A stretch of DNA of 64,000 nt, from NCBI GenBank assembly GCA_947625125.1, contig CANQNF010000012.1, positions 1-64,000 of the forward strand, in the 5' to 3' direction. Positions 7,512 through 63,039 of the stretch are shown here, piece by piece. Source of the DNA: an uncultured Clostridia bacterium. GTDB taxonomy: Bacteria > Bacillota > Clostridia > Oscillospirales > Ruminococcaceae. The notes under the pieces were generated by a model that ran no database searches, had not been told where the DNA came from, and saw only the letters and a program-made list of their open reading frames with translations. Both the position numbers and the translations under genes were made by a program. Position 1 is the stretch's first letter. Each line of letters opens with the position of its first letter.

Positions 7512-9401
7512 TCAGGAGATTTCTTCCTCCCCCTCATAATACCTCGCCTGGGCGTCCCAAAGCTGCTTATATCTTCCGCCCGCGTCTATGAGCTCGTCGT
7601 GCGTGCCCCGCTCGATTATCCCGCCGTCCTCAAAAACCAGTATCTCCCTGCAAAAACGGCAGCTCGAAAGCCTGTGGCTTATATAAATCGCCGTGCGGTC
7701 GCCGACTATTTCATCGAAATTCTTATATATTTCGGCCTCGGCAAGCGGGTCGAGGCTCGCGGTCGGCTCATCCAAAACTATAAACGGCGAATCTTTATAC
7801 AGGGCGCGTGCGATCGCTATCTTCTGCTTCTCGCCGCCCGATACCACAATGCCGTCCTCGTCAAAATCCTTGCCGAGCCAGGTTTCCAAGCCGTCCGGCA
7901 GCTCTTTTAACCGCTCTCCGAAGCCTGCGTCCTCAAGGCATTTAACCGCCCTTTTTTCATTCACGTCGCAGGAGCCCGCAACGTTCTGCCCGAGCTTATG
8001 CGACATCAGCCAATAGTCCTGAAAAACGACCGAGAAAATCGCTATGTATTCGTCGTAGCGGTATTTTTTTATGTTCACGCCATTGAGAAGTATCTCCCCC
8101 TCCTGCGGGTCGTAGAGGCGGCATAAAAGCTTTATGAACGTCGATTTGCCCGAGCCGTTCTCGCCCACCACGGCAAGCTTCGTCCCGACCTCGAATGACG
8201 CAAAAACATGCCGAAGCGCCCATCTTTCGGAGTTCGGGTATTTAAAACTCACGTCTTTAAATTCGACATTGTATTTTCTGTCGCGGCGTTTTTCGGTCGT
8301 AAGGGTTCCCTGATACATCTTGTTAGGAATATCCAAAAATTCAAATATATCCTTTAAAAACTTCGAGTTTACGCGCAAATTGTTTAACAGGGTCATCGTC
8401 CATGTGAACCCGGTGATGAAGTTTGTGACGGCGCCGACATACTGAGTTACCTCGCCGAGTCCGAACGCCCCGCCGAGCGCTTTCAGGCATACAAAGAGAT
8501 AAATTATGCTCATCAGCGCCTTTTCGCCAAAGACTGCGGCAATCTTCATCAGCCCGCCGACGCCCTTGTTGTGCTTGTCAAAAATGCCTCCCGGAAACCA
8601 CGGAGTCTCGCCCTTTACCCAGCAGTAATGCTTTAAAAATCCCTCGCTTTGGTTATACATTCTGTAATCGACCATCGATTCGGGGTCTCTTCGCATAAAA
8701 TTGAAATGCCCAAATAGCCTGTTTCCGAACCTCGCTTTGTCCGCCAAAGCCGCCGACATCTCCATGCTTTTGCCGTTTAAAAATGGGGATATAGAAGCGC
8801 AGAAAATCATCAGCGCCAAAAAGCCCAGGACTGCAAAGGGGCTGTTGAGAAATGCATAGGGGCTTTCATCGGGGACTTTGTTTATTATCAGTCCCGCCGC
8901 CATCGCAAACGCTCCGATAACGCTGAACAGGTTAGACACAAGCCCCTCAAAATTCCACTGTATCCGCGAAAAACCCCAGCCCGACCAGTTTCTGTTCTGA
9001 TCTATCTGATCTCTTAGATCCCGAACGCGCTGGTCCTCGACGTCGCTGTAGTCCATCGACATGAACTTTTCGTCCTCGATTCGTTCCAGGTTGTTCCAGA
9101 AGTTTGTCGCCTTGACCTCGTAGGCATGATACATAACGCCGTTAATTATGGCGAAAACCGCCGTCGAGATTATCTGAAACGCAGCCCAGAACAAAAGCGT
9201 TTCGGGCCGCCTCTCCCCGGCAAGCTCGCCTATAAGCCTTGCGGTCACAAAAAGCGAGGCGTAGGAAAATACGGTATTTAAAAGCGCTTTTATTGTGACG
9301 TACGGAAACATCAGCCTGTTTTTTGAATTTAAGAGCTTAATCGCCCTGACATTTATCTTAAACGCCTCTTTCCAAGGCATTTTATCCGATTTATTAGCCA
9401 T
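7512..9401 (-). CDS. ABC exporter half-transporter (permease-ATPase), locus 1
   Basis: Start MANKSDKMPWKEAFK (9401); VGENGSGKSTFIKL, VVSGGEKQKIAIARALYKDSPFIVLDEPTASLDP. Confidence 0.93.
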   Translation of the reverse strand: MANKSDKMPWKEAFKINVRAIKLLNSKNRLMFPYVTIKALLNTVFSYASLFVTARLIGELAGERRPETLLFWAAFQIISTAVFAIINGVMYHAYEVKATNFWNNLERIEDEKFMSMDYSDVEDQRVRDLRDQIDQNRNWSGWGFSRIQWNFEGLVSNLFSVIGAFAMAAGLIINKVPDESPYAFLNSPFAVLGFLALMIFCASISPFLNGKSMEMSAALADKARFGNRLFGHFNFMRRDPESMVDYRMYNQSEGFLKHYCWVKGETPWFPGGIFDKHNKGVGGLMKIAAVFGEKALMSIIYLFVCLKALGGAFGLGEVTQYVGAVTNFITGFTWTMTLLNNLRVNSKFLKDIFEFLDIPNKMYQGTLTTEKRRDRKYNVEFKDVSFKYPNSERWALRHVFASFEVGTKLAVVGENGSGKSTFIKLLCRLYDPQEGEILLNGVNIKKYRYDEYIAIFSVVFQDYWLMSHKLGQNVAGSCDVNEKRAVKCLEDAGFGERLKELPDGLETWLGKDFDEDGIVVSGGEKQKIAIARALYKDSPFIVLDEPTASLDPLAEAEIYKNFDEIVGDRTAIYISHRLSSCRFCREILVFEDGGIIERGTHDELIDAGGRYKQLWDAQARYYEGEEEIS

Positions 9402-9402
9402 T

Positions 9403-11256
9403 TCAAACCGCCTCCTCTTTAGTAAAATCCTCTTGATAATAGCGCGCCTGCACCTGAAACAGCTTTGCATATTCCCCGCCAAGCTTTAAAAGACTCTCGT
9501 GAGTGCCCTCCTCGGCGATTTTTCCGTCCTTAAGATATAAGATCCTGTCGCAGAACTGCGTAGAAGCAAGCCTGTGGGAGATAAAGAGCGAGGTTTTACC
9601 GTCCGCCATCGAGTTGTATTTTTCATACATATCCCGCTCCGCCAGAGGGTCTAAAGCGGCCGTCGGCTCGTCCAAAACAAGGATTTTTCCGTTTTTATAG
9701 AGCGCCCTTGCAAGCATGAGCCTTTGGGTCTGCCCGCCCGATAATACCACGCCGTCAAGATAAACTTCTCTTCCGAGGTGGGTATTTATCCCATCCGGCA
9801 GGTCGGAAACAGCCTTTGTCAGCCCGGCCTTTTCAATGCAGTCGCGAACTCGCGGCAGGTCGATATTTGTCGCCGACTGCGCGACGGTCTCGGCGACGGT
9901 GATGTCAAACATATTAAAATGCTGAAAAACCGCCGAAAAGAGCTTGTAATACTCGGCGCGGTTGAAGTTTTTAATATCGACGCCGTTAAGTAAAACTCTG
10001 CCCCCGTCGGGGTCCAAAAGCCCGGTGATGAGTTTTATCAGCGTGGTCTTGCCCGCTCCGTTGAGACCGACTATCGCTATCTTTTCGCCCGGCTTTACGG
10101 TCAGAATCATGCCGTCGATAATTTTTTTGTCCGATTCGGGATAGGCGTAGCTTACGTTTTCAAGCTTTATTTCATATGTATAGCCCTCGGGAATCTTCTC
10201 GCCGCCGCCGAAGTTAAACGGCTCGGGATAGTTTAAGAATTCAAGTATGCAGGAAAAATCGAGGCACTTGTTCTTTAGATCCAAAAAGTCGTTTAAGATC
10301 CCGCTGAAGCGCCCGTTAAAGGAGTTCACCGCCGAGAAATAAAGCATGAATTCCGCCGCGGTCATACCGTTTTCGAGGCACATTTTTAAGAGTATGAAGA
10401 TGACCGCGCCGCTCCGAAGAAATTCTATTATCATGCTCGAAAACGTGCCGATAAGATAGAATTTGTGCTCTTTTTTAGAATACGCTTCCTTTGCGGCAAG
10501 CGCCTTGTCGGTGAGGCGGTTTATCCAGCTCGCGAGCCCGAAAAGCCGGATATCCTTAGCAACGGAAAGTTGGCTCGGCAGGCCCTGCAAATACCACGCC
10601 TGCCGGTCGATGTGGGACAGCTCCTCGCGGTGGCGGTAGTTATACTTATAAACATAGCCCGAGATCAGAAAGTCGGCTAAGCTTAAAACGACCGTCACCG
10701 CAAACACGACAGGATGGATGTAGGTCAGCATCGCCGTGAAGAAGATGAACATGACTATGTTCACGCCGAGGTTCTGAAGCGTGTTCCATATTCCCTCGGT
10801 GGGGGCGGCGTTTGAGTAACCGGCATTGGTTGCACGCTCGGCCGCCCGCAAAAATTTGTTGTCGTAGCAGTGGCAGTAGGATGTCGCGACGGTCTTGTCC
10901 GAGACCTCCTGTACGATCTTTGTGCGCAGCTGTACCTGATAAGCCATCTTGAAACCCTCAGCGCCGATGCCGTTTCCGATATAGTTTACAAGCGCGTCGG
11001 AGATAAAGCAGCCGCCGATGAAGAATGCCGCCGTCAGAATCAGCTCTTGGGCGGTGCTGTGGTTTTCAAGCTTTGAGAGTATCATCGGGGACATATAAAA
11101 CCCGAAGACCGCGCTTGAGATGTTGAATATGATTTGGAAAAACAGCAGTACAATGGTTTCGGGACGGTATTTTTTTGCCCGCGAGAAGAACCAGCCGAGG
11201 CATTTGAGCATGCCGTACTGCGGCTTTTCGTCCTTTTTCTTATCCTTTTTTGACAT
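9403..11256 (-). CDS. ABC exporter half-transporter (permease-ATPase), locus 1
   Basis: MSKKDKKKDEKPQYGMLKCLGWFF; VGLNGAGKTTLIKL, VVLSGGQTQRLMLARALYKNGKILVLDEPTAALDP. Confidence 0.93.
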   Translation of the reverse strand: MSKKDKKKDEKPQYGMLKCLGWFFSRAKKYRPETIVLLFFQIIFNISSAVFGFYMSPMILSKLENHSTAQELILTAAFFIGGCFISDALVNYIGNGIGAEGFKMAYQVQLRTKIVQEVSDKTVATSYCHCYDNKFLRAAERATNAGYSNAAPTEGIWNTLQNLGVNIVMFIFFTAMLTYIHPVVFAVTVVLSLADFLISGYVYKYNYRHREELSHIDRQAWYLQGLPSQLSVAKDIRLFGLASWINRLTDKALAAKEAYSKKEHKFYLIGTFSSMIIEFLRSGAVIFILLKMCLENGMTAAEFMLYFSAVNSFNGRFSGILNDFLDLKNKCLDFSCILEFLNYPEPFNFGGGEKIPEGYTYEIKLENVSYAYPESDKKIIDGMILTVKPGEKIAIVGLNGAGKTTLIKLITGLLDPDGGRVLLNGVDIKNFNRAEYYKLFSAVFQHFNMFDITVAETVAQSATNIDLPRVRDCIEKAGLTKAVSDLPDGINTHLGREVYLDGVVLSGGQTQRLMLARALYKNGKILVLDEPTAALDPLAERDMYEKYNSMADGKTSLFISHRLASTQFCDRILYLKDGKIAEEGTHESLLKLGGEYAKLFQVQARYYQEDFTKEEAV

Positions 11257-11318
11257 TATATCACTCCCTTTTTAGGATGATCATATCATAACACAAAAGT
11301 CCCCGAGGATTATATTTC

Positions 11319-11354
11319 GGGGACGAATTGCAAGCTGTAGGGGACGAAATGCAA
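11319..11354 (-). promoter_or_regulatory. Paired direct repeats (21-bp period), candidate LytTR regulator site, locus 1
   Basis: Plus-strand GGGGACGAATTGCAA (11319) and GGGGACGAAATGCAA (11340); on the minus strand a TATGAT lies 28 nt downstream of the second unit. Confidence 0.6.
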
Positions 11355-11390
11355 TCAGAAGTCAGAAAACAGAAAATCAGATTGTCAGAA

Positions 11391-12053
11391 TTATTCTTTA
11401 GGGAGGGGCAGTAAAACTTCTGTTGTAAACGCTCCCTCCTCGGAGTTGCGGGAGATGTAGCCGCCAAGGCGTTTGACCACGTCGTCTATCCTGCCGAGGC
11501 CGAGGCCGTGCTCTCCGCCCTTGGTGCTTTTAAAGACATTCCCGATTTTTTGGAGCTTGCCGCCGGATGTGAAATTGAGAAAAGAAATATAGAGCTGATT
11601 GCCCTTTAAATCGAGATAAACGCGGATGACCCGCCTATCCTCCGGCAGGCCCTCGGAGGCTTCGATGGCGTTGTCAAAGAGATTGCCCAGAATCGTGCAG
11701 AGATCGACCGCCGAAACCGAGAGCAGAACGGGGATGTGCGCGTCGACGTCGACACGAATATTTCGGTCGTTTGCAAGGGCGATCTTTGAATTTAAAATCG
11801 CGTCGGTCATCGGGTTGCCGGTCTTAATTACCGTATCGACGGTGTAAAGGTCCTTTTCGAGGTCGTCCAGATATTTTGAAACGGCCTCAAGGTCGCCCTT
11901 GTCGGCGTATGACTTCAGGACCTGGATATGGTTTCGGTAGTCGTGCCGCCAGCCCCGCATTTTTCTGTACATGTTGTCGACCTCTAAAAAATGCGTTTTC
12001 AAAAGCTCCTGCTGATAGGCTTCGATCCGCCTGTTTGCGCGCTTTCCGAGCAT
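11391..12053 (-). CDS. GHKL-type sensor kinase lacking a membrane domain (AgrC/CitB-kinase-like cytoplasmic part), locus 1
   Basis: MRGWRHDYRNHIQ (phospho-acceptor box), LGNLFDNAIEA (N box), HGLGLGRIDDVVKRLGG (G box); no hydrophobic N-terminal segment. Confidence 0.9.
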   Translation of the reverse strand: MLGKRANRRIEAYQQELLKTHFLEVDNMYRKMRGWRHDYRNHIQVLKSYADKGDLEAVSKYLDDLEKDLYTVDTVIKTGNPMTDAILNSKIALANDRNIRVDVDAHIPVLLSVSAVDLCTILGNLFDNAIEASEGLPEDRRVIRVYLDLKGNQLYISFLNFTSGGKLQKIGNVFKSTKGGEHGLGLGRIDDVVKRLGGYISRNSEEGAFTTEVLLPLPKE

Positions 12054-12059
12054 ATTTAC

Positions 12060-12755
12060 CTACCCTTTCATGTTGATTATCGCACGGTTGACTTTTTCGT
12101 ACGCGCCTCTCGGCAGCGGTACGGCGTCCCCGCCCTTTAAAAAAATCTCCGACCGAGTGACCCGGGTTATGAAATAAAGATTGACGATATACGAGCGCCC
12201 GACGCGGATAAATCTTTCGTCAAGTTCATGCTCGATTTCTTTGAGCGGCTTTTTCAGCGTATATTCCCGCTCGGCATGCACGGTGACATAATTTTTAATC
12301 ACTTCAATAAATTTTATATCGCATATCGGCACCAAAGCCGTCTCGTCGGGAGTCTCCAAAACGAGCCTTTTGCCGTCGTCCGCAATTTTCTCGACCGCCC
12401 TTGACAGCACCGAAAACAGCTTCTCTCGGTCCACCGGCTTTAAAAGATAATGCGTCGCCGCGACGTCGTAGCCCTCCGAGATGTAGTCGGAATAGGCGGT
12501 GATGAAGATTATTTGGAGGAGGCGGTTGCCGTTCTGCCGAAGTTTTTTGGCAAGCTCGACCCCCGAGAGCCCCGGCATCTCGATGTCCAAAAGAAGTATG
12601 TCGGGCGGGAAGTCGGAGTATGAAAACAAAAGCGCCTCGGCCGACGGGTATTCGCGTATGCTGACGCCCGCCCCGGACCGGTCAGCCCAGTCGAGGACGA
12701 GGTTTTTGATGTATGCGCGCTCCTGCGCGTTGTCGTCGCAGAGGGAGATGTTCAT
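12060..12755 (-). CDS. LytTR-family response regulator, locus 1
   Basis: Receiver (DILLLDIEMPGLSGVELAKKLR) plus LytTR DNA-binding domain (IKFIEVIKNYVTVHAEREYTLKKPLKEIEHEL...FIRVGRSYIVNL). Confidence 0.94.
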   Translation of the reverse strand: MNISLCDDNAQERAYIKNLVLDWADRSGAGVSIREYPSAEALLFSYSDFPPDILLLDIEMPGLSGVELAKKLRQNGNRLLQIIFITAYSDYISEGYDVAATHYLLKPVDREKLFSVLSRAVEKIADDGKRLVLETPDETALVPICDIKFIEVIKNYVTVHAEREYTLKKPLKEIEHELDERFIRVGRSYIVNLYFITRVTRSEIFLKGGDAVPLPRGAYEKVNRAIINMKG

Positions 12756-12811: not shown

Positions 12812-12865
12812 GGTGGGGGATTCCGGGGAGAGTCTAATTCACCCGCATTATTCGATATTATAAAA

Positions 12866-12930
12866 ATGTCGCCGCAGGCGACACCTTGAAATTCTGTCAT
12901 CTGATTTCTGACCTCTGTCTTCTTGATGTG
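12866..12930. repeat. Family-2 dispersed repeat with GTCGCC-GCA-GGCGAC mini-hairpin
   Basis: TGTCGCCGCAGGCGACACCTTGAAATTCTGTCATCTGATTTCTGACCTCTGTCTTCTTGATG; near-identical inverted copy at 62850-62914. Confidence 0.8.
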
Positions 12931-14975: not shown

Positions 14976-15998
14976 ATGAGTATGTTCAAAAAGGATATAG
15001 GCATCGACCTCGGCACCGCCAACACCCTCGTCTACGCCAAGGGCAAGGGCATAATCCTGCGCGAGCCGTCGGTCGTGGCAGTCGACACAAAAACCGACGC
15101 GGTAAGATACGTCGGCATGGAGGCCAAAAACATCATCGGCCGCACACCGGGTTCTATTCGCGCCGTGCGCCCGCTTAAGGACGGCGTTATCGCCGATTTT
15201 GACATGACCACCGCCATGCTCCAGGAATTCATAAGAAAGGCCCTCGGCAATCCCCTCGCAAAGGCCCGGGTCATCATCTGCATACCCTCGGGAGTCACCG
15301 CAGTCGAGAGAAGAGCCGTCAAGGAAGCGGCCGAGGGAGCAGGCGCCAAAAAGGTCGCAATTATCGAGGAACCGATGGCGGCGGCTATAGGCGCGGGTCT
15401 TCCCGTCGAATCCCCGACCGGCTCGATGATAGTCGACATCGGCGGCGGCACCAGCGAGGTCGCGGTCATCTCCCTCTGCGGCATCGTCACCAGCCGTTCC
15501 GTAAGGGTCGCGGGCGACGAATTCGACAATTCGATAATCAACTTCATCAAGAGAAAATACAACCTCCTCATCGGCGAGAGGACTGCTGAGACCATTAAAA
15601 TATCCATCGGCTCGGCATACCCCGGCGAAGATGATTCCGAGCTTGAGATCAAGGGCAGAAACCTGCTCACGGGTCTCCCCGAAAATATCACCGTCACTTC
15701 CGAGGAGATAAGAGAGGCCCTTTCGGAATCCCTGTCGCACATCATCGAGGCAATCAAGGTCACTCTCGAGCGCACTCCTCCGGAGCTTTCCGCCGACATA
15801 ATCGACGCGGGAATAACCCTCGCTGGCGGCGGCGCGCTCTTAAGAGGGCTCGACCAGCTCATCAACGAAGAGACCGGCATTCCGGTGCACATCGCCGAGA
15901 GGCCTCTTGACTGCGTAGTCGACGGCACCGGCAAGCTTCTTGACAACATTGAGGAGCTCTCCGAGGTCCTCAACGCCGGAGCAAGCAACGCGCAATAG
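14976..15998 (+). CDS. mreB: Rod-shape protein MreB
   Basis: [45 protein letters not shown]. Confidence 0.98.
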
Positions 15999-15999
15999 A

Positions 16000-16215
16000 G
16001 GGTAGAGAGTTAGGGAATAGAAGATAGAACTGCGGGGCGCGAGTGTCAGCGGTGATTTATCGCTGTAATGTGCTAAATCACTTTATCCTCTAATCATCTG
16101 AATTCTATCCTCTAATCATCTATATTCTATCTTCTAATCATCTAATCTCTAACTTCTGCAAAGCTCAAAGGCCGGGCTTTCATTCTGACTTCCGACTATA
16201 TCAATTCTGTCTTCT
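16000..16215. repeat. Family-2 TAGA/TCTA-rich repeat tract between mreB and mreC
   Basis: gagggtagagagttagggaatagaagatagaa ... ttatcctctaatcatctgaattctatcctctaatcatctatattctatcttctaatcatctaatctctaacttctgc. Confidence 0.8.
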
Positions 16216-23237: not shown

Positions 23238-23681
23238 ATGATAAAAATACGAAAGCTTGAGGAGCGCGACCGCGGGCCGGTCAAGGAAATGATGCGGGTT
23301 TTTTACGCCTCGCCGGCAGTGATGACCGACGGGTCGGACGAAATTTTTGAAAAAGATATTACGGAATGTATAAGCGGCTCGCCTTTTGCCTCCGGGTATA
23401 TTTTTGAGGTTGACGGAGAGCTCGCCGGGTATTCGATGCTGGCGCACAGCTTCTCGACCGAGTTCGGAAAGCGTTGCGTGTGGGTGGAGGATTTATACAT
23501 TATTCCCAAATTCAGGCGGCAAGGTATCGGCCGGGAGTATTTTTCATTTCTCGACCGGGAGTTCGCGGGTTGCCTGCTCCGGCTCGAAGCGGAGGAGGAC
23601 AACGCCCCGGCGATACGTCTTTACGAGCAGGCGGGTTTTAAGCGAATCGGGTATCGGGAGATGGGGAAGCAGCCGGGATAG
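23238..23681 (+). CDS. GNAT-family N-acetyltransferase
   Basis: MIKIRKLEERDRGPVKEMM...VWVEDLYIIPKFRRQGIGREYFSFL...APAIRLYEQAGFKRIGYREM. Confidence 0.9.
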   Translation: MIKIRKLEERDRGPVKEMMRVFYASPAVMTDGSDEIFEKDITECISGSPFASGYIFEVDGELAGYSMLAHSFSTEFGKRCVWVEDLYIIPKFRRQGIGREYFSFLDREFAGCLLRLEAEEDNAPAIRLYEQAGFKRIGYREMGKQPG

Positions 23682-23682
23682 A

Positions 23683-23825
23683 TGATAGAGGGTAGGAGAT
23701 AGAAGATAGAGATTAGAGGATAGAATTCAGAATTTCTGCACAAAAATGCCGCCAAAAAAGGCGGCTCTTTTTATATTCCCCTCCCTCTTCTATCCTCTAT
23801 CCTCTAACTTTCTATCCTCTACATA
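23683..23825. repeat. Family-2 repeat tract, imperfectly palindromic, containing a bidirectional terminator
   Basis: tagatgatagagggtaggagatagaagatagagattagaggatagaattc ... GCCGCC-aaaaaa-GGCGGC-tcttttta ... ttctatcctctatcctctaactttctatcctcta. Confidence 0.8.
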
Positions 23826-25673
23826 GTACCCCGCCTGCGCGTCCCAAAGCTGCTTATACTTCCCCTCCTGCCGGCTCAGCTCCTCATGCCCGCCGTCCTG
23901 AACGATTTCCCCCTTATCGAACACCAAAATCCTCTCGCAGAACCGACAGCTCGACAGCCGGTGACTTATAAACACCGAGGTGCGGTCCTTGGCGATTCGG
24001 TTGAAGTTTTCATAGACTTGGGCTTCCGCGATTGGGTCGAGGCTCGCCGTCGGCTCATCTAAAATCACGAACGGAGCGTCCTTATAGAGAGCCCTCGCGA
24101 GCGCCGTTTTTTGCTCCTCGCCGCCGGAAAATTCTATTCCGTTTATGTCATATTCCCTGCCCATGCAATAGTCGAGCGCGCTTATGCCGTCTTCTTTTGC
24201 TTTTTTATTAAGGTCATTAAGCTTCTGCCCCATGCCGGCGCGCTCAAGGCAGTCGCGGGCACGTGCTTCGTCATACCCGAGGCCTGCCGAAACATTGTCG
24301 CCGAGAGAAAATCCGAACAGCTTGAAATCCTGGAAAACGACCGAAAACAGCGCCATGTATTCGTCGTATCTGTACCTCGTAATGTCAATGCCGTTAAGTA
24401 AAATCTTCCCCTCGGTCGGGTCGTATAGTCTGCACAAAAGCTTTATAAAGGTCGATTTTCCGGAGCCGTTTTCCCCGACGATCGCGATCTTGTCCCCGAT
24501 TTTAAACTTCATCGTAACGTGCCTAAGCACCCAATTTTCTGTCCTCGGGTATTTAAAGCTCACGTCCTTGAATTCGATTTCATAGTCGAGGTCGTCCCGC
24601 TTTTCGACGGCGAGCGTGCCTTTGTACATATTATTCGGCAGGTCGAAAAATTCGTATGTCGTCTTAAGATAGCCGGTGTTGAAGCGAAGCTGCGTGACAA
24701 GCTCGGTTATTTCGTCAACAGCGCTCACGAAGCGGCTTATCGCGCCCTCATAGAGGACGAAGCTGCCGACGCCGAACGCGCCCATGAACGCCTTTGCCGC
24801 GACGTAGAGGTGTATTATGATCTGCATGGCGGCGTTTTTCGGGGCGTCGAGCGCGCCGAACACAAGCCCTGTTTTCTGGAGTTTCATAAGCCACGGCGGC
24901 CGAATCGTGTGCCTGCGGTACTCGTTTAAAACGATGGGGTGCAGCCCGAAGATCGTCATATCCTCGCCCCAGAGCCGACCGTAGGAGTTGTAGCGGCGGT
25001 TTGTGAGCGATACCTCCGAGAGAGCCTCTTCCTTGCGCTTTCTTTGTAAGACCCGAAGCTTCACCGTCAGCGCCGAGAACGCCCCGATAATTAAGAGCAT
25101 TATGAATACCGACAGGCGGGAATTGATAAATCCCAATATGCCGCTGAACTTCCCCGAGGCGCTTGCAAAGAGCGCGGCGGCCGTCAGAGAGAGCGACAAA
25201 ACAATATCGGTCATCGCCCCTATAGCGTCCGGGATATTATACAAAACGTTCATCAAACCGCCGTAAACCGTTCTTGTATTTGCGTCTATCTTCTCGTATA
25301 ACAGCTTTACATCGGGGTTTTCGAGATGTTCATACTGCAAGCTGCAGTTTTCGTTGAACATGATTTGAGAATATCTGTAATAATTCTGATTTTCTAAAAT
25401 GCTTTCATTCATTTGTACAGCGCGGCTAAGAACCGAGAATATAAACCCTCCGATAACCGTCAGCGCCGAGAAAATAATTAACCTTTTCTCATCTCTTGCG
25501 CCCGATACTTCGTCAAGCAGCAGCGCGGACATTGTGAGCGAAAAATATCCGGAGACCTGCCGCAATACCTTTTCAATCGTATCAAGAATCCAGTATTTCG
25601 ACGCGTACTCCCGCCATATCTTCATCGCCCTCTTAAGGCAGTAAATATCGTATTTAAGCCCTTTTTCAGCCAT
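23790..25673 (-). CDS. ABC exporter half-transporter, locus 2
   Basis: Start MAEKGLKYDIYCLKRAMKI; VGENGSGKSTFIKL, EFSGGEEQKTALARALYKDAPFVILDEPTASLDP; C-terminal VEDRKLEDRG is encoded by the repeat. Confidence 0.93.
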   Translation of the reverse strand: MAEKGLKYDIYCLKRAMKIWREYASKYWILDTIEKVLRQVSGYFSLTMSALLLDEVSGARDEKRLIIFSALTVIGGFIFSVLSRAVQMNESILENQNYYRYSQIMFNENCSLQYEHLENPDVKLLYEKIDANTRTVYGGLMNVLYNIPDAIGAMTDIVLSLSLTAAALFASASGKFSGILGFINSRLSVFIMLLIIGAFSALTVKLRVLQRKRKEEALSEVSLTNRRYNSYGRLWGEDMTIFGLHPIVLNEYRRHTIRPPWLMKLQKTGLVFGALDAPKNAAMQIIIHLYVAAKAFMGAFGVGSFVLYEGAISRFVSAVDEITELVTQLRFNTGYLKTTYEFFDLPNNMYKGTLAVEKRDDLDYEIEFKDVSFKYPRTENWVLRHVTMKFKIGDKIAIVGENGSGKSTFIKLLCRLYDPTEGKILLNGIDITRYRYDEYMALFSVVFQDFKLFGFSLGDNVSAGLGYDEARARDCLERAGMGQKLNDLNKKAKEDGISALDYCMGREYDINGIEFSGGEEQKTALARALYKDAPFVILDEPTASLDPIAEAQVYENFNRIAKDRTSVFISHRLSSCRFCERILVFDKGEIVQDGGHEELSRQEGKYKQLWDAQAGYYVEDRKLEDRG

Positions 25674-27513
25674 TTTCGGGCACCTCCTCCCGGTAATACT
25701 TAGCCTGTATGTCAAACAGCTCGCGGTATTTTCCTTTCTTTGCCATCAGCTCGTCGTGCGTTCCGACCTCGGCGAAGTTCGCGCCGTCAAGTAAAAAAAT
25801 TCTGTCGCAGAAGCGGGTCGAAGCTAAGCGGTGTGAAATAAATACCGAGGTCGAATTTTTTGAGATCTCGTTATAGCGGCGATACATCCTGTCCTCGGCG
25901 ATGGGGTCTAAAGCCGCCGTCGGCTCGTCAAGTATCATGCAGAGCGGGTCTTTATAAATCAGGCGCGCCAGCAAAATCCTCTGCTTTTCGCCGCCCGATA
26001 AATCTGCCGCGCCGTCGTTCACGGTTCGGTCTAAAGGCGTTTTTAAGCCCATCGGCAGGCTGTCGGCCTTATCCTTAAACCCCGAGAGCTCGACCGCGCG
26101 CAAAAGCTTATCCCGGTCAATTTCATCTTCATTAACGGTGCAGGCGATGTTCTTTTCAAGCGATACCGGAAGCAGATTATATTCCTGCGGGATCAGCCCG
26201 AACATGGAATACATCTCGTCGCGGTTGTATTCAAAGAGCGTGCGGCCGTCAAGGAGAACCTCGCCCTCGTCGGGCAGCAAAAGCCCGCACATAAGCTGTA
26301 CAAGGGTAGTTTTACCCGCGCCGTTTAAGCCCACCAGCGCTATCTTTTCCCCCGGCTCTATTTTAAACGAGACATGCTCCAAAACATTCTTTTCGCCTTT
26401 AGGATACTTGAATGTAACGTCCCTGAACTCGATTGAAAACGGCTTTTTGGGGAGCGCAATGCCGGGGCCTCGGTTTAATTTTCCTTTATATTCCAAAAGC
26501 TCGCGGATATCGCTTATCTGCGCCGAGCCCTCTTTTACCTGCTGGAAGCGCCACGCTATGCCGCTTAAAAGGCCTGCGAGCGAGCTTATCGCCGAGAAAT
26601 AGAGGACGAACTGCGCGGCGTCGACCTCTCCCGAAAGCGCTTTATAAATCAGCAGGGCGTAGGCGAGCCCGTCTCTTAAAAGCACTATCGAAAAATCGAC
26701 GAGCGAGACTAAGAGCCCGCGGCGCTCGTGCTTTCTCTGCCAGCCGATACAGTCCTCGATTTGCTTTGAAAATCTGTCGTTTAAGGGCTGCGCCATGCCG
26801 TACAGCCGGATTTCTTTTTGGTATTCAAGATTTTTTGCAACGCTCACGGAGATGTAATCCCGCTTTCTGTCGGCGGCGTTGCGCCCGTCGCGCTCTTCAT
26901 AGTGCTTCCGCCACTGCCAGTTTGACATGCGGCGGTTTACAAATGCCCCGATAATAAGAATCACGACTATCGCCGGGTGGAGCATTGAGACCGTCGCCCC
27001 GAAGAGGAAGAATTTGATAATTTCTCCGACCGTCTCGGCAAAAATCATCGGGAAGTGTGTGGCGTGGGAATGGTCGCGGGCGGCGGCGCTTGCGCGGTCG
27101 TTGAATTCTCGGTATTTCGTATCGTAGTGCAGATAGTTGTCGGCAAGCCTCGCAGACTCTGTGACCTTATATGACAAAAGCCCCAGCATATGGTTCTCGG
27201 CGTTCGATACCATGGTCTGAATCATGGAATTCATGGCGTTTACCGTGGCGCGCGCTAAAACAATCCCGCCGACGGCGAGAGCTATGAACCCGAAGTCGGA
27301 ATATTTTTCGATGGCGGTTATTATCGCCGGGGAAGCGTAGAGGCCGAATGCCGCCGCCAAAAGCGAGAGCGGCACGACCCCGAGCCCGACGAACACCAAA
27401 AACCGGGCGTTTTCCCAGAGCAGGCCGTAGATATATCTCACGCAGGAGAGTATGCCGTACTTGGGCTTGCGCTTTTGGTCCCTGTCTTTTTTCTTTTTTG
27501 ACATTTTTATCAC
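25666..27513 (-). CDS. ABC exporter half-transporter, locus 2
   Basis: MSKKKKDRDQKRKPKYGILSCVRYIYGLL; VGLNGAGKTTLVQL, DLSGGEKQRILLARLIYKDPLCMILDEPTAALDP. Confidence 0.93.
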   Translation of the reverse strand: MIKMSKKKKDRDQKRKPKYGILSCVRYIYGLLWENARFLVFVGLGVVPLSLLAAAFGLYASPAIITAIEKYSDFGFIALAVGGIVLARATVNAMNSMIQTMVSNAENHMLGLLSYKVTESARLADNYLHYDTKYREFNDRASAAARDHSHATHFPMIFAETVGEIIKFFLFGATVSMLHPAIVVILIIGAFVNRRMSNWQWRKHYEERDGRNAADRKRDYISVSVAKNLEYQKEIRLYGMAQPLNDRFSKQIEDCIGWQRKHERRGLLVSLVDFSIVLLRDGLAYALLIYKALSGEVDAAQFVLYFSAISSLAGLLSGIAWRFQQVKEGSAQISDIRELLEYKGKLNRGPGIALPKKPFSIEFRDVTFKYPKGEKNVLEHVSFKIEPGEKIALVGLNGAGKTTLVQLMCGLLLPDEGEVLLDGRTLFEYNRDEMYSMFGLIPQEYNLLPVSLEKNIACTVNEDEIDRDKLLRAVELSGFKDKADSLPMGLKTPLDRTVNDGAADLSGGEKQRILLARLIYKDPLCMILDEPTAALDPIAEDRMYRRYNEISKNSTSVFISHRLASTRFCDRIFLLDGANFAEVGTHDELMAKKGKYRELFDIQAKYYREEVPENG

Positions 27514-27557: not shown

Positions 27558-27593
27558 GTGTACGAAATGTAATTTTGAGGGTACGAAACGCAG
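27558..27593 (-). promoter_or_regulatory. Paired direct repeats (21-bp period), candidate LytTR regulator site, locus 2
   Basis: Plus-strand GTGTACGAAATGTAA (27558) and GGGTACGAAACGCAG (27579); minus-strand TACTCT lies 28 nt past the second unit. Confidence 0.58.
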
Positions 27594-27594
27594 T

Positions 27595-27690
27595 TAGAGG
27601 ATAGATGATTAGAGGGTAGAAGATAGAGGATGATTAGATGATTAGAGAATCAGAGGTTAGAATTCAGAAAGTGCGGAAAGTGCAGAAAGT
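27595..27690. repeat. Family-2 repeat, left arm of inverted repeat IR1
   Basis: ttagaggatagatgattagagggtagaagatagaggatgattag...agaatcagaggttagaattcagaaagtgcgg; reverse complement at 28782-28870 apart from a short indel. Confidence 0.88.
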
Positions 27691-27903
27691 TCAGACAGAG
27701 AACAGACGGTCAGAGGTTCGGAAAACAGAATGCAAAATGCGCAAAATCCACATAGTAGTTAGAGAATAGTTGTTAGTAGTTAGTTTCAAGGTATCGCCTG
27801 ACGGCGATTATTTTAAAGGTGCGGGAGGAGATTACTAACTACTAATAACTAATCTCTGACTACTACACGCTGACCGACAAAATGCGCAAAATGTGCAAAA
27901 TCC
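27666..27903. repeat. Left arm of long inverted repeat IR2 (about 240 bp)
   Basis: Reverse complement matches 29573-29824 with few differences (an extra GCGCAAAAT unit and a short GGAGGAGATT/GAAAAAATAC difference). Confidence 0.9.
27753..27865. repeat. MITE-like palindromic unit within IR2 left arm (no transposase)
   Basis: Ends TAGTAGTTAGAGAATAGTTGTTAGTAGTTAGT ... ACTAACTACTAATAACTAATCTCTGACTACTA, about 29/32 matching terminal inverted repeats, around a TCGCCTGACGGCGA core. Confidence 0.65.
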
Positions 27904-27956
27904 ATAAAAGTAAAAATCAGAAGAACAAGCTATCCTCCTGATTTTCTATCTTCTAT

Positions 27957-28631
27957 TCATCTAACCTCTCTATCATCTAAAAGCGGAATCAGAAGTTCCG
28001 CCGTGAACCCGCCGTCCTCGCTGTCCGCGGAGAAATATCCCCCGTACTTTTTCACCGTTTCCGCCACCCGCCCGAGGCCGAAGCCGTGGCTGTCCCCCTT
28101 TGACGACTCAAAGTGAGAGCCCGTTTTTTTATGCTTACTGCCGGCGGCGTTCGTGACCGAAAGATAAAGCTGAGTGTTTTTTCTGCCCATATAAACGCGT
28201 ATGAAGCGGCTTTCGGGCGCAAGGCGCTTGTTTTCTTCAATGGCGTTGTCCAAAAGATTCCCGATGATAACGCATAAATCGACGTCCGAAACCGGAGTGC
28301 CGTCGGGGATTTTCGCCTTTGCGTTTACGGGTATTTCGTTTTGCGCGGCGATGTTGAGCTTGCCGTTTAAAATCGCGTCGACCATCACCCGACCGGTTTT
28401 TATCACGGTATCGACGTTCGTCAGGTCGTCGTTCAGGTCGGAAAGGTACCGGCTCACCTCGTCGTATTTCCCGAGCGCCATCGAAGCCTGCATGGCCTGA
28501 ATGTGGTTGTGATAGTCGTGCCGCCAGCCCCGCATTTTTCGGTACATCGACTCGACCTCGTCGCAGTACTTCTGGAGCAGCTCGGACTGATACCGGTCAA
28601 TCCTTTTGTTAATTATCCTATCAAAGATCAT
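27957..28631 (-). CDS. GHKL-type sensor kinase lacking a membrane domain, locus 2
   Basis: Likely start MIFDRIINKRIDRYQSELL; MRGWRHDYHNHIQ, IGNLLDNAIEE, HGFGLGRVAETVKKYGG; C-terminal DDREVR encoded by the family-2 repeat. Confidence 0.9.
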   Translation of the reverse strand: MIFDRIINKRIDRYQSELLQKYCDEVESMYRKMRGWRHDYHNHIQAMQASMALGKYDEVSRYLSDLNDDLTNVDTVIKTGRVMVDAILNGKLNIAAQNEIPVNAKAKIPDGTPVSDVDLCVIIGNLLDNAIEENKRLAPESRFIRVYMGRKNTQLYLSVTNAAGSKHKKTGSHFESSKGDSHGFGLGRVAETVKKYGGYFSADSEDGGFTAELLIPLLDDREVR

Positions 28632-28781
28632 TTTTAGCTCCTTTTGTTTAGAAGATAGATGAACAGAGGGTAGAGGATAGAATTCTCTACTAAAATTTAT
28701 ATGGATTTTCAGCATTTTCAGCACTTTCCGAATTCTATCTTCTAACTTCTACCCTCTAATCATCTACCCACTAACAGCGTG

Positions 28782-28870
28782 AACTTTCTGAACTTTCCGC
28801 ACTTTCTGAATTCTATCCTCTGATTCTCTAATCATCCTCTATCTTCTACCCTCTAATCATCTATCCTCTA
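28782..28870. repeat. Family-2 repeat, right arm of inverted repeat IR1
   Basis: gaactttctgaactttccgcactttctgaattctatcctctgattctctaatcatcctctatcttctaccctctaatcatctatcctcta. Confidence 0.88.
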
Positions 28871-29246
28871 AATGCAGTCTCTTTTTCAGCCCCTCCTGCA
28901 AAACGCCGGAGAAGTTTATGTTTGCGGCCTCGGCCGCCTCGTTGAGCCACGACGGGACTGTAAGCGTTTTCTTTACCGAGCGGGCGTCGTGCGCGCGCTT
29001 ATAGGCAAGCTCGTCGTATTCTATTATCATCATAAAGTCCGGCGCGGCCGTTTTTATATCTTCGGGGCGGGACGGCGCGGGTATAACGCTGAGCCCGTCA
29101 AGATAAAGCCCGACAGCTTCCCGAATCATCCCGACCGCCTCGACGACAGTCTCGCCCTGAGAAAAGCAGCCGTCGAGGTCGGGCACGCTCACAGAATAGC
29201 CCTCGTCCTCGGGATGAAAAACTGCGGGATAATAAAGTTTTTTCAT
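28857..29246 (-). CDS. hicB: HicB-family antitoxin
   Basis: MKKLYYPAVFHPEDEGYSVSVPDLDGCFSQGETVVEAVGMIREAVGLYLDGL; C-terminal HTH-like part; last codons LEDR from repeat. Confidence 0.9.
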   Translation of the reverse strand: MKKLYYPAVFHPEDEGYSVSVPDLDGCFSQGETVVEAVGMIREAVGLYLDGLSVIPAPSRPEDIKTAAPDFMMIIEYDELAYKRAHDARSVKKTLTVPSWLNEAAEAANINFSGVLQEGLKKRLHLEDR

Positions 29247-29269
29247 TTAAAATCACTCCTGTTAAATAA

Positions 29270-29458
29270 TTATTTCAGCCCTGCCTGCTTAAGAATGCTC
29301 TGCTCTGTGCCCTTTTTCAGCTCTTTGGCATGAAAGGGAACTATTGCGGTTTTCCCTGTTTTAGGGTTATAATATTTTCGGTGAGAGCCGTTTGAGCTTA
29401 TAAATTCAAATCCGCTTTCTTCAAGCAGCTTAACTATTTCCCGAGGCGTCATAGGCAT
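29270..29458 (-). CDS. hicA: HicA-family mRNA interferase toxin
   Basis: MPMTPREIVKLLEESGFEFISSNGSHRKYYNPKTGKTAIVPFHAKELKKGTEQSILKQAGLK (GSHRKY and PFH motifs). Confidence 0.93.
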   Translation of the reverse strand: MPMTPREIVKLLEESGFEFISSNGSHRKYYNPKTGKTAIVPFHAKELKKGTEQSILKQAGLK

Positions 29459-29572
29459 TTTATAATTCCCAACTTTCCATGATAATATTATAGCACGTAT
29501 TATACGTATTGTCAAGAGCTCATAGAAGATAGAATGTTAGAGGGTCAGAGGATAGAAAATCTCTGCCCGAGT

Positions 29573-29824
29573 TTTGTGAATTTTGCGCATTTTGCGCATT
29601 TTGTCGGTCAGCGTGTAGTAGTCAGAGATTAGTTATTAGTAGTTAGTATTTTTTCCCGCACCTTTAAAATAATCGCCGTCAGGCGATACCTTGAAACTAA
29701 CTACTAACAACTATTCTCTAACTACTATGTGGATTTTGCGCATTTTGCGCATTTTGCATTCTGTTTTCCGAACCTCTGACCATCTGTCCTCTGTTCGCAC
29801 TTTCTGAACTTTCCGCACTTTCTA
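29573..29824. repeat. Right arm of long inverted repeat IR2
   Basis: ttgcgcattttgcgcattttgtcggtcagcgtgtagtagtcagagattagttattagtagttagta ... cctttaaaataatcgccgtcaggcgataccttgaaactaactactaac ... attttgcattctgttttccgaacctctgac. Confidence 0.9.
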
Positions 29825-29838
29825 ACCTCTATCCTCTA

Positions 29839-30531
29839 TCAGAATAATTCTATTATCCGTTTCCCGATTTGCCCCTGCATGCCCCTGCTGATGGGAACCG
29901 CTTCGCCGCTTCTAAGAATCACCTCGGTGCGGGTTATCCTAAGGACCTCTCTAAGATTGACGATAAACGAGCGCTGAACTCTCAGAAAATACCCGTCGAG
30001 GCGCGTCTCAAGCTCGGAAATAGGGACTTTGAGCCGATACTCGCCGGATGATGAAAAAATAACGGAATACTGCCGACTGGCCTCGATATAGCGAATCTCC
30101 CGAAGCGGCAGGGCGACTTCCCCGCCGTCAAAAGGCACAAGAATTTTGCGCTCGGATTGTGAAATCTTCACAGCCGCGCGGTCGAGCACCTCAAAGAGTT
30201 TTTCGGGCGTGACGGGCTTCAGGAGATAATGCAGCGCTTCGACGTCGTATCCCTCGGAGATAAAGTCGGGGTAGCCCGTGATGAAAATAATCTGCACCGG
30301 CTTGGACTCATGGCGAAGCTTTTTTGCAAGCTCCACGCCGTTCATGCCGGGCATTTCTATGTCCAAAAGCAAGATTTCGGGGCAGCGTTCGGGGCAGTCG
30401 AACAGCAGCGCCTCGGCCGAGGGGTATTCGCGCACGCTGACCAACGCCCCCGACTGTGAAGCCCAGTCAAGGACGAGGTTTTTGATGTATGCGCGCTCGT
30501 TGGCATTGTCGTCGCAGAGGGAGATGGTCAT
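29839..30531 (-). CDS. LytTR-family response regulator, locus 2
   Basis: Receiver (EILLLDIEMPGMNGVELAKKLR) and LytTR domain (IRYIEASRQYSVIFSSSGEYRLKVPISELETRLDGYFLRVQRSFIVNL). Confidence 0.94.
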   Translation of the reverse strand: MTISLCDDNANERAYIKNLVLDWASQSGALVSVREYPSAEALLFDCPERCPEILLLDIEMPGMNGVELAKKLRHESKPVQIIFITGYPDFISEGYDVEALHYLLKPVTPEKLFEVLDRAAVKISQSERKILVPFDGGEVALPLREIRYIEASRQYSVIFSSSGEYRLKVPISELETRLDGYFLRVQRSFIVNLREVLRITRTEVILRSGEAVPISRGMQGQIGKRIIELF

Positions 30532-54869: not shown

Positions 54870-54982
54870 GGGGCAATTCTGACTTCTGACCTCTGTTTTC
54901 TGCCCCCTTGACGCGTAAGCGGCTTGACTTTCCCCTTTCATTGTGGTATAATATCCCCGCAGAAAACAAAAGGAGCCTTGAC

Positions 54983-55543
54983 ATGACCTTTCATCCCGTC
55001 GCGCCGGACGCGCTGTCCGATTTTCTGAACTTCTTCGACAACTCGGCGTTCCAAAAGGGCGACGAGTGGGAGGGCTGCTACTGCCTCGAGGGAAGCTGCG
55101 ATCGGCACTTTGAAATTTCTTTCACCGACCGAAAAAAGCGCCGGGAGCTCGCTTCACGGCTTGTTTTATCGGGCAGGCTGCGCGGCTATATCATCCGCGA
55201 AAACGGCAGAGATATCGGCTGGGTAAAGCTCGGCGACAAGCTCGATTTTGAGGCGTTTAACGATTGGTATCACGGGGAGATGCCAGAAAAAAGGGGCGTC
55301 ACGGCCGTGCTTTACTGCATTGACCTGATACCGGAATGCCGAGGTAAAGGGCTTGCAAAGGAAATTCTCGACTTTGCGATAAAAACCGCCGCCGAAGAGG
55401 GTTATGATTTTTTGGAGGCATACCCATCCTCCGACCTTAGTGAAAAGCGCAACTATCGCGGGCATGCCGGAATGTATCAAAACGCGGGCTTTGAGACAGT
55501 CGGCGTGGGCGAGGATTTTCTTATCATGCGCAAGGCGCTCTGA
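54983..55543 (+). CDS. GNAT-family N-acetyltransferase
   Basis: VLYCIDLIPECRGKGLAKEILDFAIKTAAEEGYDFLEAYP. Confidence 0.85.
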   Translation: MTFHPVAPDALSDFLNFFDNSAFQKGDEWEGCYCLEGSCDRHFEISFTDRKKRRELASRLVLSGRLRGYIIRENGRDIGWVKLGDKLDFEAFNDWYHGEMPEKRGVTAVLYCIDLIPECRGKGLAKEILDFAIKTAAEEGYDFLEAYPSSDLSEKRNYRGHAGMYQNAGFETVGVGEDFLIMRKAL

Positions 55544-55562
55544 ACATTCTGCTAAAATTTAA

Positions 55563-55605
55563 CAGAGGTGTTTGCCTTGATTAACCACCTCTAAAAAACA
55601 AGGAG
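55563..55605 (+). ncRNA. preQ1-I-type riboswitch (translational)
   Basis: P1 AGAGGTG (55564-55570)/CACCTCT (55586-55592); pseudoknot CCTTG (55575-55579)/CAAGG (55599-55603); A-rich tail AAAAAA; SD AAGGAG partly inside the pseudoknot; queT ATG at 55613. Confidence 0.88.
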
Positions 55606-55612
55606 ATTTTTT

Positions 55613-56098
55613 ATGCAAAAAAACAGTTTTTCCGCCGTAAGAATCGCAAAATTGGCGGCCGTCGCCGCGCTCTATGTGGCGCTCACCTACGCCCTCGGCT
55701 TCATGTCCTATGGCAACATTCAATTCCGGGTCGCCGAGGCTCTGATGCTCCTGTGCTTCTACAAAAAGGACTACGGTATCGCCCTTACGCTCGGCTGCTT
55801 CATCGCGAATATTTTCAGCCCGATGATGCTGATGGATATGGTTTTCGGCACTCTCGCCACCGTACTTGCCGTGCTTCTTATTTTCATCAGCCCGAACCTT
55901 TACATCGCTTCCCTCGCGCCCGTCCTGACGAACGCGGTCATCGTCGGGATCGAGCTCACCGTGGCGTTCAAAACCCCGTTCTGGCTCAACGCCATTGAAG
56001 TCGCCGCAGGCGAATTCGTCTGCGTGAGCATTGTCGGAGTCATCCTCTTTAAGCTCCTCGAAAAAAACGCCGGGTTCATGAGGCTTGTCACCGAATAA
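55613..56098 (+). CDS. queT: Queuosine precursor ECF transporter S-component QueT
   Basis: AALYVALTYALGFMSYGNIQFRVAEALMLLCFYKKDYGIALTLGCFIANIFSPMMLMDMVFGTLATVLAV. Confidence 0.92.
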   Translation: MQKNSFSAVRIAKLAAVAALYVALTYALGFMSYGNIQFRVAEALMLLCFYKKDYGIALTLGCFIANIFSPMMLMDMVFGTLATVLAVLLIFISPNLYIASLAPVLTNAVIVGIELTVAFKTPFWLNAIEVAAGEFVCVSIVGVILFKLLEKNAGFMRLVTE

Positions 56099-62779: not shown

Positions 62780-62849
62780 AAGGCTCCTTTCAGTGGTTTT
62801 TGTTTATTATAGCATATTTTTTCCGGGATGGCAAGGGCATGCGGCGCAT

Positions 62850-62914
62850 CAAGAATACAGAATTCAGAAATCAGATGACAGAATTTCAAGGTGTCGCCTG
62901 CGGCGACAATTTAA
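62850..62914. repeat. Family-2 dispersed repeat (inverted copy of 12866-12930)
   Basis: catcaagaatacagaattcagaaatcagatgacagaatttcaaggtgtcgcctgcggcgaca. Confidence 0.8.
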
Positions 62915-63039
62915 AAACAGTGACAACGCGGGCGACCGAACGCCCCTGCTAATTTTGTATGCTCCCCGTACCTCCTGCGCACCGCCCGCACCGGGGGACT
63001 GCGAGCCGGAACCTTGCAGAATCCATCGGGATAGTGCAA

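Follow-up and report, generated by a model that had tools for sequence, protein, structure and literature searches.

REP and MITE-like elements are dispersed palindromic intergenic elements. Intergenic heptanucleotide direct repeats have been described as TAACTGA sets in marine Beggiatoaceae and in some Cyanobacteria and Bacteroidetes, and their author considered both regulatory and rearrangement roles for them (PMC4679880). In the C. difficile cmr switch (cmrRST), a regulatory segment is inverted by a site-specific recombinase (PMC6837544). Here we describe a regulator-kinase-ABC transporter operon of an uncultured Clostridia bacterium, found in a window of 64,000 nucleotides, by which we mean the whole stretch of DNA that was analysed. 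In our main reading, to which we assign a probability of roughly two in three, homologous recombination between copies of an intergenic composite repeat (R) relocated and inverted the hicBA genes within this operon and homogenised the repeat copies, as a slow rearrangement and not as a dedicated switch.

The operon is read from the minus strand, and its genes follow one another in this order:

29839-30531, minus strand: LytTR response regulator (RR)
29270-29515, minus strand: hicA toxin (HicA_toxin, PF07927, 6e-21), as the longest open reading frame
28857-29246, minus strand: hicB antitoxin (HicB_lk_antitox, PF15919, 1e-12)
27957-28631, minus strand: GHKL histidine kinase (HK), 224 aa with a SpoOB-type dimerisation helix, full length compared with its orthologs
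25666-27513, minus strand: ABC1 transporter gene
23790-25715, minus strand: ABC2 transporter gene

These identities and coordinates for the kinase, hicB, hicA and the regulator agree with a preliminary description of the locus. HicA and HicB domains occur in neighbouring genes, both with Pfam matches above the cut-off, and by domains and gene order the pair is a toxin-antitoxin module. The longest hicA frame overlaps the promoter of the module, so the real start is probably an inner ATG at about 29459, which is kept in relatives. A truncated kinase was ruled out, as orthologs and a paralog are equally about 220 aa long. Since all genes of the operon read one way at present, the present state is the coupled one. 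The same window contains a paralogous regulator-kinase-ABC-ABC operon (7512-12755, minus strand) without hicBA and with few repeats, in which 6 bp separate regulator and kinase. We also observe a remnant resembling the hairpin core close to the paralogous operon (12858-12928), with a matching inverted copy at 62847-62917.

The gaps between regulator and hicA, between hicB and kinase, and between kinase and ABC1 hold three copies of one repeat type, which are arranged in several overlapping pairs:

27652-27909, plus strand: outer arm on the ABC side, the composite repeat between kinase and ABC1, delimited by pairwise alignment
29572-29837, minus strand: outer arm on the regulator side, the composite repeat between regulator and hicA, reverse complement of 27652-27909
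27590-27693, plus strand: nested inverted pair, ABC-side copy, with AG-rich heptad/nonad repeats
28780-28875, minus strand: nested inverted pair, hicB-side copy, the third and partial copy of the composite repeat, whose end forms the last hicB codons
28783-28821, plus strand: direct repeat bracketing hicBA (family D1), kinase-side copy, 92% identical to 29799-29837
29799-29837, plus strand: direct repeat bracketing hicBA (family D1), regulator-side copy
27753-27865, plus strand: heptad-armed hairpin element, copy 1, with 32-bp arms that are 91% complementary (RNA fold -51 kcal/mol, z -7.1)
29616-29727, minus strand: heptad-armed hairpin element, copy 2
15996-16030, 23679-23725, 23790-23822, 27957, 28857 and 29838: heptad arrays near stop codons

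Upon aligning the first outer arm with the reverse complement of the second, we find 241 identities, 16 mismatches and 10 gap columns over 267 columns, with nine of the ten gap columns representing exactly one 9-bp repeat unit, which accounts for nearly all of the difference in length. The alignment score is 414, against at most 34 in 200 shuffles, and the arms share an exact core of 95 nt (27732-27826 and 29654-29748, 100%). The inverted arms that had been proposed at 27666-27903 and 29573-29824 are thus real and fall inside the measured limits. So is the nested pair proposed around the kinase, which aligns in two segments separated by an 8-bp indel (27590-27650 with 28815-28875 at 92%, and 27637-27693 with 28780-28836 at 96%) and surrounds the kinase plus most of the first outer arm. 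Two further features were absent from the preliminary description, namely the 39-bp direct pair, which surrounds hicBA alone, and a 32-bp inverted repeat within each outer arm. Outer, nested and direct pairs are all far above chance. An assembly artefact is unlikely, as common read lengths exceed the longest exact match between the arms (95 bp) and two separate assemblies show an alternative gene order.

The arms are built around a hairpin of about 115 nt, in which 32-bp heptad arms (TAGTAGT TAGAGAA TAGTTGT and so on) enclose a GC-rich inner stem, and the hairpin is surrounded by 9-bp units (CAAAATGCG, GAAAGTGCG) and 7-bp units (TAGAGGA). When one hairpin copy was folded on each strand, the self-complementary fold was beyond chance (z -7.1 and -7.9). 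A search for known RNA families in the arms returned only sub-threshold microRNA matches, which we take as chance because the sequence consists of hairpins. The heptad arrays often begin at a stop codon or immediately behind it and show TAG on the coding strand; their 7-bp spacing places stops in all three frames. Furthermore, the last codons of three genes, ABC2, the kinase and hicB, consist of repeat sequence. The arms could on these grounds act at operon boundaries as bidirectional transcription terminators or as hairpins that stabilise RNA, in which case the inverted layout would be a by-product and any rearrangement incidental: both contain terminator-like stems, shuffled sequences fold much less well than the hairpins (z about -7), and repeats often start right at stop codons. 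We consider this very improbable, given that the T-tracts after the stems are weak and that termination alone leaves unexplained both a lineage-specific segment shared by the arms and the differing positions of hicBA among relatives, described below.

The copies found elsewhere and the counts of heptad arrays place the arms in a dispersed intergenic family and argue against a bespoke pair; the arms are copies of R without being dedicated inversion sites. R has 25 matches in its own genome, mostly partial, and repeats of this kind also flank unrelated genes. Copies of the hairpin element with about 74-85% identity and a common consensus are present in eight genomes of the genus (the own genome and seven others) and form a genus-wide family with a degenerate heptad unit, TAGNNNN. 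The own genome has 108 exact heptad triples (TAGNNNNTAGNNNNTAG), compared with 22 for a reversed control pattern, two sister species have 215 and 160, and many other species of the genus have almost none; several relatives show an excess over the control similar to or larger than that of the own genome. In a 463-kb sample that includes the window, all 53 triples observed lie outside crude gene calls, compared with 0.3 expected under a first-order model.

Several individual sites illustrate the spread of the family. Another species of the genus (G028) carries 652 exact heptad triples in 1.9 Mb, a strong species-specific expansion. A block of 38-39 bp in the window (27865-27903, around ACACGCTGACCGACAAAATGCGCAAAATGTGCAAAATCC) recurs with 100% identity in different species at unrelated loci (L170, G021:C19:40387-40425; L165, G017:C151:588-625), a conservation that is unusual for intergenic DNA. 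A third kinase of the family, on contig C11 of the own genome (L142:13450-14520), is flanked by inverted repeats of 9-bp units and the hairpin element, and its locus has LytTR-like sites of its own upstream of ABC genes. Additionally, two own-genome loci (L140:13900-15650 on contig C9 and L151:10650-11050 on C11) have a common upstream region, after which the C9 locus has a gene of about 1.5 kb between repeats of 9-bp units and the C11 locus only the hairpin element, as if a gene cassette had been gained or lost at the repeats.

Seventeen orthologous operons (kinase identity at least 83%) were retrieved by scanning public genomes, all of them from rabbit-gut ('Lapin') metagenome assemblies, so that the loci carrying the comparison of gene order are metagenome assemblies throughout. 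In 15 of the 17, hicBA is absent beside the regulator, the kinase and, where the contig reaches that far, the ABC genes. The two others, from sister species (L047 and L048), have the order RR> HK> <hicB <hicA ABC>, with hicBA between kinase and ABC1 and opposing the operon, while the window has hicBA between regulator and kinase, reading with the operon. An alternative order, whose absence from all strains the preliminary description had named as evidence against a rearranging cassette, is thus found in a pair of sister species. In each of the 21 ortholog loci listed, some of which come from one species retrieved twice, kinase and regulator point the same way, and in each of the 20 loci with ABC genes the kinase also agrees in direction with these; the suggestion that inversion uncouples the kinase from its regulator and turns it against the ABC genes is not borne out. 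Comparison of orientation among relatives, as had been proposed, hence reveals an inverted and displaced hicBA in L047 and L048 and a kinase that is never inverted. The distance between regulator and kinase ranges from 12 to 264 bp among orthologs, indicating that loose coupling is tolerated.

A tree of four genes joins the window with L048 and then with L047, with weak node support (75 and 58), which makes the order of L047 and L048 the more parsimonious ancestral state. With this weak support, the shortest history on the tree would be one gain of hicBA and one later change in the window lineage. The genes flanking the operon differ from species to species, and rearrangement therefore extends beyond this locus. 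We also note genes that are about 25 kb away from the operon in the window (54908-56098) and a few kb upstream of the operon in L048 (1193-2383), so that the whole operon changed neighbourhood between sister species.

The borders of hicBA were compared between the two arrangements. In L048, hicBA is flanked by a pair of direct repeats, 95% identical over 119 bp. The hicA-side border of the window matches that of L048 at 86% over 118 columns and the hicB-side border at 93% over 43 bp; the hicBA cassette therefore carries the same repeat-derived borders in both positions and orientations. At the 3' border of the kinase, the start of the window's kinase-ABC gap equals the start of the kinase-hicB gap of L048 (48 of 48), and the end of the same gap matches the hicA-ABC gap of L048 at 88% over 121 bp. 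The gap thus looks like an R1/R2 hybrid left by the departure of hicBA through direct-repeat recombination. This border sharing is suggestive and not conclusive, because the 39-bp nonad block recurs at 100% at unrelated loci of other genomes and because the kinase-3' flavour of R also adjoins a paralogous kinase of the same genome; sharing of R alone is no proof that hicBA once sat between kinase and ABC. Furthermore, both arms of the window carry a hairpin segment of about 145 bp at the same site. The repeats that border hicBA in L047 and L048 lack this segment, which suggests that the arms of the window exchanged sequence recently, after the lineages had split. Half of the hairpin is present in the regulator-kinase gap of L048, so a repeat was available there for a move of hicBA.

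The proposed path begins from an ancestor which, in the regulator-to-ABC direction, would have had the order RR>, R', HK>, R, <hicB, <hicA, R, ABC>, as in the two sisters, and would end in the order of the window, RR>, R', hicA>, hicB>, partial R', HK>, R, ABC>. With R copies on both sides of the kinase and on both sides of hicBA as possible recombination substrates, the repeat halves would pass from RR–b0'a0'–HK–a1b1–<hicB<hicA–a2b2–ABC to RR–b0'a2'–hicA hicB–b1'a0'–HK–a1b2–ABC. This could occur by inversion of the kinase-hicBA block followed by inversion of the kinase alone, or by excision of hicBA between direct repeats and its reinsertion at the repeat between regulator and kinase. Both routes would need homologous recombination only, for which the arms are, as previously proposed, long and similar enough (267 columns with the 95-nt exact core), and because both yield identical junctions, the present sequence is compatible with either. 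The two inversions put forward in the preliminary description, across the outer pair and of the kinase alone, do relate the sister order to that of the window, but what differs between the species is hicBA and not the orientation of the kinase. The repeats, the alternative orders and the shared borders are observed directly; from the borders and the shared segment we infer the recombination pathway.

Alternatively, a mobile hicBA bordered by R may have entered the operon twice, once in the window lineage and once in that of L047 and L048, without inversion. R is scattered over the genome, the borders of hicBA consist of R, and the C9 and C11 loci provide a second own-genome site at which a gene is present or absent between nonad repeats. 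Nevertheless, we regard separate entries as unlikely: hicB of the window is 84-89% identical to its counterparts in the two sisters, similar to the values for the adjoining genes, no further species in 31 genomes of the genus has a hicB copy above 80%, and sampling 398 genomes of the family added only relatives at 58-67%, so that common descent within the same operon is simpler. Regarding a phage origin, viral contigs gave only hicB relatives at 43-47%, and a 34-base piece of the hairpin element had no exact copy in them; a phage-borne hicBA and a phage-borne repeat were both rejected.

Relocation of hicBA by slow recombination has also to be weighed against a phase-variable cassette, in which the kinase-hicBA block or the kinase alone would flip in the living population and turn the kinase on and off. 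The long, near-identical inverted arms with their 95-bp exact core, the signs of recent exchange between them and the precedent of phase-variable signal transduction in gut Clostridia (cmrRST, PMC6837544) all fit such a cassette, and, as in invertons, inverted repeats bound a DNA segment here. We nonetheless hold it to be improbable, in view of the constant direction of the kinase relative to the regulator across orthologs and the membership of the arms in a dispersed family whose repeats flank unrelated genes. No recombinase gene lies on the contig of the window (C12), which carries none of the 19 PF00589 and 35 PF00239 matches of the genome, although one encoded elsewhere may act in trans. 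A search of the own genome assembly for a second or alternative junction found none, with a single assembled orientation. A site-specific inverton was rejected, given the contig without a recombinase and arms that are long and part of a dispersed family. A switch working by homologous recombination between the dispersed hairpin repeats, flipping the kinase with hicBA or alone in living populations, appears quite improbable as well; if it did operate, kinase expression would alternate between states coupled to and uncoupled from an autoregulated toxin-antitoxin promoter, and a signalling system would be linked to a toxin-antitoxin module. Overall, a programmed invertible switch is not supported, and a live switch is possible but unsupported.

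The predicted effect of a relocated hicBA on expression involves the following sites:

29487-29515, minus strand: hicBA promoter, a perfect TTGACA-17-TATAAT
29495-29507, no strand assigned: palindrome ACGTAT-A-ATACGT between -35 and -10, kept in other hicBA loci, a probable HicB operator
27560-27590, minus strand: LytTR-like direct repeat pair (ATTTCGTAC type, 21 bp apart) upstream of ABC1

The hicBA promoter and its palindrome are conserved in the sisters, with a similar form upstream of more distant hicBA copies. In the window the promoter reads towards the kinase, and in the sisters against the regulator-kinase transcript. LytTR-like sites with the 21-bp spacing occur upstream of ABC1 in several orthologs under a strict pattern, and the pair in the window is a probable binding site of the regulator, together with a separate ABC promoter. 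A terminator-like stem follows the kinase, and a weak one lies between regulator and hicA. With the move of hicBA, the kinase would leave the regulator transcript and come to lie behind the strong and probably HicB-regulated hicBA promoter, and the ABC genes would keep their own regulator-responsive promoter. The window would then probably be transcribed as RR, hicA-hicB-HK and ABC1-ABC2, compared with RR-HK, a reversed hicBA and ABC1-ABC2 in the sisters.

At the level of single genes, the locus illustrates how a two-component operon can be rewired by non-coding intergenic repeats, with the same toxin-antitoxin cassette in two positions and orientations around one kinase and with repeat-derived borders. 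It also brings to light a little-described family of heptad hairpins in gut Clostridia, of which some species of one genus have hundreds of arrays and others nearly none. If the rearrangement were frequent, control of the kinase would be phase-variable.

Among the systems considered, the intergenic heptamer sets are the nearest published repeats found (PMC4679880). Like the TAACTGA sets, the repeats of the window have short 7-bp units in small tandem sets, are intergenic and are distributed patchily between related species; unlike them, the unit is degenerate (TAGNNNN) and often placed right after stop codons, and two opposed sets often form a hairpin with a conserved GC-rich inner stem. With REP and MITE-like elements they share a non-coding, intergenic hairpin of about 115 nt in several divergent copies per genome, dispersed in the own genome and in relatives and with a self-complementary fold, a likeness of hairpin form and dispersal. 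As in the cmr switch (PMC6837544), inverted repeats adjoin a two-component system gene of a clostridial gut bacterium, but the arms of the window are about 260 bp long, have three whole genes between them, are members of a dispersed repeat family and have no recombinase nearby. Finally, the module resembles type II hicBA modules in its order, hicA then hicB, its strong promoter and its palindromic operator, and departs from the usual hicBA in being embedded in a regulator-kinase-ABC operon and in taking the last residues of hicB from repeat sequence.
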